Source: Winogradskyella sp.
GTDB taxonomy: Bacteria; Bacteroidota; Bacteroidia; Flavobacteriales; Flavobacteriaceae
Direction: 5' to 3'
DNA: 44,475 nucleotides
Assembly: GCA_013002225.1 (NCBI GenBank)
Contig: JABDKL010000159.1
Span: forward strand, 1-44,475
The translations under genes were made by a program, and so were the position numbers. Of the stretch, positions 3,433-38,481 are shown piece after piece (the stretch's first letter is position 1; the number at the start of each line of letters is the position of its first letter). Below the pieces are notes generated by a model that saw only the letters and a program-made list of their open reading frames with translations, had not been told where the DNA came from and made no database searches.

Positions 3433-3484
3433 TTTAAACGTTATAAATTTGTGTATTTCATCGAAAATTTAAGTATTTAAACCT
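3433..3484. promoter_or_regulatory. Tandem ~20-base elements, candidate LytTR-type binding sites
   Basis: GTATTTCATCG (from 3453) and GTATTTAAACC (from 3473) are in direct orientation exactly 20 bases apart. A weaker match, TTTAAACG, lies at 3433-3440. Similar arrays occur at 17307-17356 and 38037-38089. Spacing near two helical turns is typical of LytTR-family operator pairs; the assignment is inference. Confidence 0.35.
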
Positions 3485-3533
3485 GTTTTTATAATTATTT
3501 AGGTAAGTTAGTTTCCCCTAAATTGCCTAAATT

Positions 3534-3773
3534 ATGAAACCTATCTCTAAAGCTACACTGCCGTGTGCCGTATTTGGTCATAACTATGAAAAGACCTATA
3601 ACTACCGTAATAATACTTCTACCTTAAAGTGTATGCATTGTCAATTGGTCGCAGACACCGATGAAGAAGGCAATTTTATAGAGACAAGAATGCCAAATAA
3701 GGACATACAAATTACACTTCGCAAACTATACCACCTGAAATTAAGGACCTTTAGGACCGCATTTTCGATTTAA
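3534..3773 (+). CDS. Small Cys/His protein of unknown function
   Basis: A 79-residue basic protein with no signal peptide. It shows a first Cys/His group (LPCAVFGHNY, residues 9-18) and a second, CMHC at about residues 33-36. That arrangement (C-x4-H plus C-x2-C) could form a small zinc-ribbon-like site. The C-terminal 25 residues are rich in Lys, Arg and Leu. I do not recognise a named family with certainty; short phage-type zinc proteins have a similar CxxFGH start, but nothing else here is phage-like. It stands alone between the mbn and suf clusters, with candidate regulator sites upstream. The start ATG is preceded by a duplicated octamer CCTAAATT at 3516-3532. It is probably expressed, because codon use resembles that of its neighbours. 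Confidence 0.6.
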   Translation: MKPISKATLPCAVFGHNYEKTYNYRNNTSTLKCMHCQLVADTDEEGNFIETRMPNKDIQITLRKLYHLKLRTFRTAFSI

Positions 3774-36121: not shown

Positions 36122-38020
36122 ATGAGTGATGCTTTAAAACACGAGTGTGGTATTGCACTTATAAGACTTTTAAAACCATTAGAATACTACAAAAAAAAAT
36201 ATGGTAGTGCTTTTTATGGTGTAAATAAGATGTATTTAATGATGGAAAAACAGCACAACCGTGGGCAAGACGGAGCTGGTTTTGCTAGTATAAAATTAGA
36301 TACCAAACCTGGAGAGCGCTATATAAGTCGCGTTCGTTCGATTGCGCAACAACCCATACAAGACATTTTTGCTCAGATTAATGAACGGATTAATGAAGAG
36401 TTTGCTCAAAATCCCCAATATCAAGATAATGTAAACTTACAAAAGCGACACATCCCTTATATCGGTGAACTTTTGTTAGGTCATGTACGTTATGGCACGT
36501 TTGGAAAAAACAGTGTCGAGAGTGTACACCCCTTTTTACGTCAAAATAACTGGCAGCATCGCAATCTAATCGTTGCGGGAAATTTTAATATGACCAATGT
36601 AAATGAGTTATTTGATAACCTAATTGAAATTGGGCAGCATCCAAAAGAAAAAGCAGACACTATTACGGTAATGGAAAAAATAGGTCATTTTTTAGATGAC
36701 GCCGTTGCTAAGATTTATAAAGACTTGAAAAAAGAAGGCTATAGCAAAAATGAATGTTCCCCTTTAATTGCAGAACGATTAAATGTTGCTAAAATTCTTA
36801 AACGAGCGGCCAAAAACTGGGATGGCGGTTACGCTATGGCTGGTCTTTTAGGTCATGGAGATTCTTTTGTCCTAAGAGATCCTGCAGGTATTAGACCAAC
36901 ATATTATTATAAGGATGATGAAATTGTGGTAGTGGCGTCAGAGCGACCTGTAATACAGACGGTCTTTAATGTTCCTTTTGAAGCGGTTTGCGAACTAGAT
37001 CCGGGTCATGCCATAATTACGAAAAAATCAGGCAAAACCGAAATAAAAAAAATATTAAAACCCTTAGAGCGCAAGGCATGTTCTTTTGAGCGTATTTACT
37101 TTTCGCGTGGAAGCGACGCAGAAATATATGAAGAACGCAAGAAACTTGGTAGATTATTAATGCCTAAAGTGCTGGAAGCCATTGAAAATGACACCGAAAA
37201 CACCGTTTTTTCGTTTATACCCAATACCGCAGAAACTTCATTCTATGGAATGATCGATACGGTCGAGGAACATCTAAATGAAAAGAAAACAAAATCAATT
37301 TTAGCTGGCGGAGGCAAGTTGTCTGCGGCACGTGTAACGGAGATATTATCTGAACGACCAAGAATTGAAAAGATTGCCATTAAGGATGTTAAGCTTAGAA
37401 CCTTTATTACAGAAGATAGCAGTAGAGATGATTTAGTAGCGCACGTTTATGATGTTACCTATGGGGTTATTAAGCCAACTGATAACTTAGTCATTATTGA
37501 CGATAGTATTGTACGTGGCACAACACTTAAGAAAAGTATCATCAAAATGATGGACCGACTGAAACCAAAAAAGATTGTTGTGGTTTCTTCTGCGCCGCAA
37601 ATTCGTTATCCTGATTGTTATGGCATCGACATGGCCAATCTTGAAGGGTTGGTAGCATTTAGAGCTGCTTTAGAGCTACTAAAGGATAACGATCTTTATC
37701 ATATCGTTGAAGAAGTATATAAAAAGTGCTTGTCGCAAGTAGATTTAAAAGATAAAAAAGTCGTCAACTACGTTAAGAAAATCTATGAAAACTTTACAGA
37801 CGAACAAATTTCAGATAAAATATCCGAATTATTAAGCGACAGTGATGTAAACGCTGAAGTTAAAATTATCTTTCAACCTGTTGAGAACCTACACAAAGCT
37901 TGTCCTAAAAATTTAGGGGATTGGTATTTTACTGGAGACTACCCAACATCTGGTGGCAATAGGGTTGTAAACAAAGCTTTTATTAACTTTTATGAGGGAA
38001 ATAAGGAGCGCGCTTATTAG
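36122..38020 (+). CDS. purF: Amidophosphoribosyltransferase, long flavobacterial form
   Basis: This 632-residue protein carries out the first committed step of purine synthesis (PRPP plus glutamine to phosphoribosylamine). Cys9 after MSDALKHE is the Ntn nucleophile freed by removal of the propeptide. The glutaminase domain follows (GHVRYGTFGKNS, QHNRGQDGAGFAS). The phosphoribosyltransferase domain has the PRPP loop NLVIIDDSIVRGTTLKKS at about 455-470. The protein is about 130-160 residues longer than E. coli or B. subtilis PurF. The extra sequence is partly inside the glutaminase domain (residues about 85-115 and 190-225) and partly a C-terminal extension. It ends before a long non-coding region. 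Confidence 0.94.
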   Translation: MSDALKHECGIALIRLLKPLEYYKKKYGSAFYGVNKMYLMMEKQHNRGQDGAGFASIKLDTKPGERYISRVRSIAQQPIQDIFAQINERINEEFAQNPQYQDNVNLQKRHIPYIGELLLGHVRYGTFGKNSVESVHPFLRQNNWQHRNLIVAGNFNMTNVNELFDNLIEIGQHPKEKADTITVMEKIGHFLDDAVAKIYKDLKKEGYSKNECSPLIAERLNVAKILKRAAKNWDGGYAMAGLLGHGDSFVLRDPAGIRPTYYYKDDEIVVVASERPVIQTVFNVPFEAVCELDPGHAIITKKSGKTEIKKILKPLERKACSFERIYFSRGSDAEIYEERKKLGRLLMPKVLEAIENDTENTVFSFIPNTAETSFYGMIDTVEEHLNEKKTKSILAGGGKLSAARVTEILSERPRIEKIAIKDVKLRTFITEDSSRDDLVAHVYDVTYGVIKPTDNLVIIDDSIVRGTTLKKSIIKMMDRLKPKKIVVVSSAPQIRYPDCYGIDMANLEGLVAFRAALELLKDNDLYHIVEEVYKKCLSQVDLKDKKVVNYVKKIYENFTDEQISDKISELLSDSDVNAEVKIIFQPVENLHKACPKNLGDWYFTGDYPTSGGNRVVNKAFINFYEGNKERAY

Positions 38021-38036
38021 TCATCCTATAAAAACA

Positions 38037-38089
38037 GCATTTAATCCGAAAAAATATGTATTTCATCTAAGATAAGTGTATTTTGTCGG
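38037..38089. promoter_or_regulatory. Three tandem elements upstream of RNA candidate copy 1
   Basis: GCATTTAATCCG (from 38037), GTATTTCATCT (from 38058) and GTATTTTGTCGG (from 38078) are direct repeats 21 and 20 bases apart, about 40-95 bases before the expected transcript start. This is the clearest of the three arrays in the window. LytTR-like binding is inferred. Confidence 0.4.
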
Positions 38090-38118: not shown

Positions 38119-38126
38119 TACATTGG
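38119..38126 (+). promoter_or_regulatory. Weak -7 box of RNA candidate copy 1
   Basis: TACATTGG stands at exactly the same distance from the RNA module as the consensus box of copy 2. It deviates from TAnnTTTG at one position, and no clear -33 TTG is present. Confidence 0.35.
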
Positions 38127-38128
38127 TA

Positions 38129-38202
38129 TCACCATAACATAAGTAGGTTAAGTTCATGGTAGATTTGGGGCAAAAAAAGGTGAACACTGTTCACCTTTTT
38201 TT
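38129..38202 (+). ncRNA. Candidate small RNA, copy 1
   Basis: The module starts with ACCATAAC (38131-38138), which pairs with GTTCATGGT (38152-38160) around a 13-base loop. A linker AGATTTGGGGC and A tract follow, then the terminator stem GGTGAACA (38179-38186) / TGTTCACC (38188-38195) and a T run to 38202. The 5' 45 bases differ from copy 2 at only one position, which falls in the bulge of the first stem. There is no open reading frame. It resembles no RNA family I can name; it could belong to a catalogued flavobacterial motif such as Flavo-1. Confidence 0.6.
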
Positions 38203-38333
38203 ATGGACTTAGTTAACGTTTTACTTTAAGTAATATCACTGGCATTAAACTCAAGACTGTAAGTAATTAGTCAGTAATCATAGTAGATTCCACGCTTAGA
38301 CTAATATATAGGTCGTTTATCCAAAAAATTGAC

Positions 38334-38361
38334 TTGTTGGTTTAATGTAATCCTATATTTG
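38334..38361 (+). promoter_or_regulatory. Bacteroidota promoter of RNA candidate copy 2
   Basis: A perfect -7 box TATATTTG (38354-38361) with TTG at 38334-38336, 17 bases upstream, fits the flavobacterial consensus. The expected transcript starts at about 38366, at the first stem of the module. Confidence 0.65.
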
Positions 38362-38363
38362 AC

Positions 38364-38437
38364 TCACCATAACATAAGTAGGTTAAGTTTATGGTAGATT
38401 TGGGGCAAAAAAGGTGAACTCTCTGTTCACCTTTTTT
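38364..38437 (+). ncRNA. Candidate small RNA, copy 2
   Basis: Same layout as copy 1: first stem ACCATAAC (38366-38373) with GTTTATGGT (38387-38395), linker AGATTTGGGGC, terminator stem GGTGAAC (38413-38419) / GTTCACC (38425-38431), T run 38432-38437. Relative to copy 1 the terminator loop is changed but the stem is kept, and the flanks are unrelated. With its promoter the expected transcript is about 70 bases. Confidence 0.65.
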
Positions 38438-38481
38438 CATTTTATCACATTAAAATATTACACGTTTTATACCATATAGGC

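Follow-up and report, generated by a model that had tools for sequence, protein, structure and literature searches.

The window, a 44,475-nucleotide stretch of Winogradskyella sp. DNA (GCA_013002225.1, contig JABDKL010000159.1), contains two short modules of about 75 and 74 nt on the forward strand, at 38130-38204 and 38365-38438 respectively, in the interval between purF and sodA. The ORF that we take to be purF, for which Pfam gives a glutamine amidotransferase domain only, ends at 38020 on the strand of the modules, and the superoxide dismutase ORF runs from 39145 to 38537 on the opposite strand. The names SodA, CAP, fasciclin, YidC-type, response regulator/LytTR, integrase and AlkB-type oxygenase, as well as the MnmA-type flank of one locus discussed below (L512), are based on Pfam; the other gene names are presumptive, given by recognition. 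A preliminary description of this DNA had noted two modules, 235 bases apart, with some 49 bases in common and one difference between them. Coordinates and a core search bear this out: positions 38129-38177 and 38364-38412 carry the same 49 bases except for a C at 38155 and a T at 38390, the spacing is 235 bases, and a 42-base core (up to three mismatches) has two matches in the window versus none in 100 dinucleotide shuffles. Beyond the common 49 bases the copies differ in the terminator loop. The genome as a whole has only these two sRNA copies.

Both copies are predicted to fold as described earlier, into a 5′ hairpin with the C/T difference at its bulge, a linker (UAGAUUUGGGGC) and a perfect terminator hairpin. 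Whole modules are more stable than shuffled sequences (z of -4.0 and -3.6, with 0 of 200 shuffles equally stable), whereas the 5′ part folded alone is not (z about -0.7, with 43 and 40 of 200 shuffles equally stable). Terminator prediction and folding place the intrinsic terminators at 38172-38202 (copy 1) and 38407-38437 (copy 2). The proposed transcription starts are predictions in both cases and fare unequally: the promoter-like −7 box of copy 2 (TATATTTG, 38354-38361) fits TAnnTTTG, while that of copy 1 (TACATTGG, 38119-38126) shows one departure from it. Upstream of copy 1, on the same strand, lies an operator-like direct repeat with a 20-base pitch (38058-38083), which matches the pattern with three mismatches, is degenerate in relatives and resembles the repeats of the small-protein target described below and of other genes. 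Copy 2 is preceded by a 33-base forward-strand element (CCACGCTTAGACTAATATATAGGTCGTTTATCC, 38290-38322) that is strongly conserved in the consensus of 30 genus loci. Since this element is unlike that of copy 1, the two copies may be regulated differently.

A covariance model, R1, was built from 26 copies, among them both window copies, which it matches at 38130-38203 (E 2.6e-15) and 38365-38439 (E 6.6e-15). With R1 the sRNA was found in 238 of 299 sampled genomes of the Flavobacteriaceae, a large family with marine and soil members, corresponding to 191 of 236 genera, and an order-level draw gave matches in 33 of 246 genomes, all 33 within the same family; stricter filters were used for these family and order-level counts, and weak matches were lost. 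A separate search showed the sRNA to be present in 59 of 60 genomes of the genus, the 60th (78% complete) matching at the target locus only; of the 39 genomes from other families that it covered, 5 gave a single weak match apiece (E 3.8e-4 to 0.007). Synteny, which had been suggested as a check together with covariation, is evident as well: both purF and sodA flank the sRNA at 55 of 60, 85 of 120 and 15 of 17 loci in partly overlapping sets, and the remaining loci of the survey reach one flank only, with five showing neither gene. The copies form tandem arrays of 1-7 near-identical members, mostly 180-300 bases apart. Several near-identical copies are also what a mobile or selfish repeat of the REP or MITE kind would produce, but nearly all copies sit at one genomic place, the window's genome has only two, and orthologous copies mostly retain the base that distinguishes copy 1 from copy 2, which leaves this explanation with next to no probability.

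The anatomy of the gene was assessed in 552 copies. Of these, 533 carry a TAnnTTTG-like box in the 20 bases upstream (58 after shuffling), and in 448 the box sits exactly 3 bases away from the hairpin (10 in shuffles). Terminator stems of at least 8 pairs occur in 550 (20 in shuffles), and the terminators are diverse, using 51 stem starts and 99 loops. The selector used here, TAGGTTAAG, fixes positions 15-23 by construction, in the 552-copy and stem/loop analyses as well as in those of 45 hairpins and 49 leaders below. Together with the recurrence of the same place family-wide, the box and stem counts strongly support the duplicated small-RNA gene that had been proposed from the window, and each copy appears to have the autonomous promoter and terminator expected of a trans-acting antisense sRNA. 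The position of the modules directly downstream of purF and on its strand would also suit terminators or other 3′-end elements of purF, or repeated DNA sites. Each copy, however, comes with a promoter-like box at a fixed distance and a terminator of its own, and up to seven consecutive copies with independent terminators would be senseless as one 3′ end, so that we regard this reading as very improbable.

Fifty genus loci yielded 98 copies; among positions 26-41 of these copies only the first, position 26, varies (45 C, 53 T). Most first copies have C at this position and second copies have T, and since the base mostly follows copy order, the duplication probably predates the genus. The first putative seed comprises the hairpin loop and arm (CATAAGTAGGTTAAGT, 38138-38153 in copy 1); it is the complement of CTTAACCTACTTATG at start codons and shows single exceptions at most per position in the 98 genus copies. 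The second (CATGGTAGATTTGGGG, 38155-38170 in copy 1) is the complement of CCCCAAATCTACCAT in partner RNAs and is invariant in the genus copies at all but its first position; in copy 2 it occupies 38390-38405 and begins with the T (38390) that distinguishes this copy from copy 1. Variation in the 5′ hairpin is one-sided only, turning A-U into G-U or breaking the pair, and the covariation looked for there did not appear, with no compensatory change in the 26 aligned copies or in 45 distinct hairpins. The preliminary description had seen a selected structured RNA; this is true of the terminator, which is kept through many stem sequences, and finds no such support in the 5′ hairpin. A nearly invariant core and the lack of compensatory hairpin change, alongside terminator stems that vary freely, point to a constraint on sequence, as expected of an antisense RNA.

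Two core types occur, GGTAGATTTGGGG (that of the window) and GGTAAGATTTGGGG; because genomes G184 and G303 carry both, the clade split is not clean. Among the matches listed, the extra-A type occurs in Maribacter, Zobellia, Flagellimonas/Muricauda, Robiginitalea, Eudoraea, Arenibacter, Kordia and Cellulophaga; the pattern of this genus-name scan matches GGTAAGATTT and GGTAGGATTT only. Two other genera hold a divergent sRNA (L400 and L409, position 1500) in which much of both seeds surrounds an unrelated hairpin, at L400 next to a LytTR response regulator (Pfam).

The third match in the window's own genome (G000:C139) was considered as a third sRNA copy and rejected: it is the complement of the sRNA, no terminator is seen on that strand, and it is hence a target. 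The ORF at this locus is small; its start codon is covered by the reverse complement of the sRNA, and both the leader and codons 5-12 contain additional sites. Counting G-U pairs, the unbroken complement is 19 bases long in the window's genome and 14-32 across 50 genus loci, and the locus itself gives a match of at least 157 bases in 66 of 68 genus genomes. The ORF encodes a conserved protein of ~41 amino acids with a hydrophobic/basic C-terminal part and no Pfam or NCBIfam family, and its last 24 codons evolve as coding sequence (pN/pS 0.39, versus 0.90 and 1.38 in shifted frames). The 49 leaders contain a mean of 2.33 sites with up to two mismatches (1 to 4 each), compared with 0.013 in shuffles, and their best duplexes reach -32.4 to -55.2 kcal/mol; the coding test and the site count both used 49 of the 50 target loci (L142 left out). 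These tandem sites span the leader, the start codon and the first codons, mostly 1-4 in number and five once (L460). Leader duplexes in 19 other genera are similar, at -32.0 to -53.9, with 0 to 5 sites (up to two mismatches) and at least one site in 18 of the 19; the locus at L476 has no site within three mismatches. The ORF pattern fits 9 of the 20 small-protein loci of other genera, all 20 of which entered the site analysis, and the sRNA type of some of these genera was assigned from the score.

Antisense RNA over the start codon of such a peptide, conserved, without an assigned family and hydrophobic/basic towards its C-terminus, is reminiscent of a trans-encoded type I toxin-antitoxin system, in which the sRNA array would silence a small amphipathic toxic peptide. 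The small protein was detected in 69 of 149 genomes, in many of them weakly, and not in the extra-A genomes G107, G117, G124, G127 and G138, which also weighs against the main reading given below. The sRNA is present where the peptide was not detected (e.g. G107, G124 and G138), the partner in peptide-less genomes has no ORF, and another mRNA has the same complement, all of which make a toxin-antitoxin system improbable. Separately, genome G028, which retains the small-protein gene (L132), contains an RNA without an obvious ORF (L068/L109) in which the operator is joined by a terminator-like hairpin and two sites complementary to the sRNA.

Eight extra-A genomes were searched with CCCAAATCTN{0,1}ACC, and four of them were found to have a ~65-nt gene consisting of a promoter-like box, the sequence CCCAAATCTTACCAAACyAA and a terminator. 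In three genomes this putative anti-sRNA gene lies between fasciclin- and YidC-type ORFs, and in the fourth (L512) it adjoins the MnmA-type ORF. The extra A of the sRNA (GGTAAGATTTGGG) is mirrored by an extra T in the anti-sRNA (CCCAAATCTTACC) in these four of eight genomes, as opposed to none of the 66 CCAAATCT(T)AyC sites at small-protein loci, which come from the window's genus and from 19 further genera. Further matches to CCCAAATCTTACC occur at L507, L508, L511 and L515. Those at L509 and L514 have a common flank (CCCAAATCTTACC...AAAACTTTGCGCATGGATCCTGT), with a phage-type integrase in L514; they are probably the end of a mobile element and were not counted. The shorter search with CCCAAATCTACC in extra-A genomes gave ten places (L517-L526) with no promoter-leader-start arrangement by eye, which we treat as background.

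The matched base bears on whether the sRNA acts through RNA at all. CsrB and 6S RNA act by protein titration, and a frozen sequence with a predicted hairpin in multi-copy arrays would fit a binding site repeated for dosage; the sRNA would then mainly bind and titrate a protein (RRM-type or another RNA chaperone), its complementary RNAs being coincidental or decoys. That the complements are long, repeated and placed at the start codon, and that the extra base is matched between sRNA and anti-sRNA, argues against protein binding as the main function, which we consider unlikely.

The reach of the sRNA beyond the small-protein mRNA was assessed in one relative, where the leaders of the small protein (-43.0) and of a CAP lipoprotein (-34.2) both beat all 321 background start regions (minimum -26.0), and two further operator genes only tie with the background, 2 and 1 of the 321 regions doing equally well. 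By this predicted measure, complementarity to mRNA start regions exceeds background for two targets, the other candidates not rising above it. The two-seed pattern CCCAAAN{4,30}CCTACTTATG retrieves the sRNAs themselves, the CAP gene in each of the 5 genus genomes (confirmed by Pfam in the window's genome) and two further genes, with 0 matches for the reversed pattern. Since in 24 other genera this pattern mostly picks up the sRNA's own complement, the regulon turns over and the target set is not common to the family. A looser search of the window's genome with CCCCAAATCTA and one mismatch found 66 sites versus 46 for the reversed pattern and was set aside as mostly noise.

A direct repeat, GTATTTCATCGA-n8-GTNTTT, links several of these genes: allowing up to three mismatches it has 25 matches in four genomes versus 7 reversed, although one of the four gives 4 versus 3. 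It stands upstream of the small-protein gene in 4 of 4 genomes, of a noncoding RNA beside an AlkB-type oxygenase gene in 3 and of sRNA copy 1 in 2, and it also precedes several surface or small proteins; several genes with this repeat have a short leader that follows nAGTCCCAAA...CCTACTTATG. The pitch of the repeat, together with the LytTR neighbour at L400, suggests that a LytTR-type regulator may read it. The window contains a second operator-like repeat (3453-3478, forward strand), upstream of a 79-aa Cys-containing ORF with no Pfam family (3534-3773). The leader of this ORF (TTTCCCCTAAATTGCCTAAATTATG) is weakly complementary to the sRNA (duplexes of -21.5/-22.9, 3 of 1000 shuffles as good) and is tentatively a marginal target. 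Two relatives (L149 and L152) have look-alikes of the 3453-3773 arrangement with the same operator.

The AlkB-side noncoding RNA is a conserved element with the same operator and its own terminator (L111-L113, L116-L122, L124-L126 and L155), containing an almost invariant AGTTCAATGGATTAATTAATTAATATTTGCATTATGT and a weak sRNA-complementary site, ACCCTAAATCTAC. As a strong sponge it was rejected and is kept as tentative, its pairing being mostly within shuffles (1 of 16 at 0/200). The same operator also accompanies a similar very short ORF of the MKN-KRI-LLV type at L110, L115, L158 and L169, most of which have a CCTA(A/T)TTATG-like start region.

The anatomy, conservation, array arrangement and complementarity of the sRNA, the coding selection on the small protein and the matched extra base can all be read from the sequences. 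On these grounds we think it likely that the modules belong to a family-wide trans-acting antisense sRNA with two seeds, which most probably prevents translation from starting and is in turn titrated by partner RNAs. Each module would be transcribed separately as a ~75-nt antisense RNA with two seeds, CAUAAGUAGGUUAAG in the loop/arm and GGUA(A)GAUUUGGGG in the linker, and would pair in trans with the complement CCCCAAAUCUACC...CCUACUUAUG over the leader and start codon of an mRNA, most likely blocking translation initiation. The multi-site small-protein mRNA and the ~65-nt anti-sRNA of the extra-A clade would also titrate the sRNA, so that its effective level would depend on how many array copies there are relative to partner sites. 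That the RNA is expressed, pairs with its partners in the cell, represses and is titrated is what we infer, with differing confidence: base-pairing is very probably the mode of action, repression is probably its main effect, with less assurance, and the chances that titration is the selected function of the multi-site mRNA and the anti-sRNA are about even. A more speculative extension, which we hold to be possible though doubtful, is a two-sided, family-wide RNA dosage system. Here the number of sRNA copies (1-7) against that of partner sites (0-5, or a separate anti-sRNA) would set a threshold for the translation of surface and secreted proteins. A common operator, possibly read by a LytTR-type regulator, would activate one sRNA copy as well as the sponge or target, whose mRNA would have the ~41-aa protein as a second output.

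A search of Rfam 15 gave no family at the gathering score or at E<=10 that accounts for the RNA: nothing reaches the gathering score in the window, in the relatives or at the partner loci. Flavo-1 is a flavobacterial RNA motif, and membership in it had been thought possible; the likeness is by name only, and Flavo-1 is absent both at the gathering score and from the 31 Rfam matches at E<=10. Qrr, LhrC and AbcR are multicopy paralogous antisense sRNAs, and the chbBC decoy of ChiX and SroC are sponge RNAs that titrate sRNAs. Paralogous antisense sRNAs and the titrating partner RNAs proposed here recall these systems, which differ in lineage and sequence; here, moreover, the tandem sites of the partner mRNA run into the coding region. 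In Bacteroides, FopS/GibS (RF04319) are described as multi-copy sRNAs with their own promoters, an intrinsic terminator, a 5′ seed and start-codon pairing; FopS has 14 members in B. thetaiotaomicron and a single-stranded 5′ stretch, and represses SusC-like transporters (PMC11697453). The window RNA is likewise a multi-copy Bacteroidota sRNA with its own predicted promoters, an intrinsic terminator and, as proposed here, a 5′ seed and start-codon pairing, but it differs in forming a tandem array at one place and in its other seeds. It may also differ at the 5′ end, where both copies have a predicted hairpin that alone is no more stable than shuffles. The RF04319 model scores 21.0 bits at 38147-38205, compared with a gathering score of 56. 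Rfp18 of Flavobacterium psychrophilum is a genus-conserved sRNA for which metalloprotease and adhesin mRNAs have been proposed as partners, and which is said to pair via a third stem-loop (PMC9723704). The window RNA resembles it as a conserved flavobacterial sRNA proposed to pair with mRNAs and differs in having two predicted hairpins instead of three stem-loops. It may be identical with one of the Rfp1-89 RNAs. Searches of open-licence literature turned up neither a description of this RNA nor a purF-sodA sRNA array.

Known targets are, to our knowledge, few among the antisense sRNAs of flavobacteria, and the model derived from enteric bacteria, with Hfq at its centre, does not transfer to Bacteroidota. 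An sRNA present in 191 of 236 sampled genera, with a fixed address, visible seeds and a partner with long complements, would make post-transcriptional control in this family directly testable, and the tandem arrays and multi-site partner mRNAs would allow copy numbers to be compared across hundreds of species.
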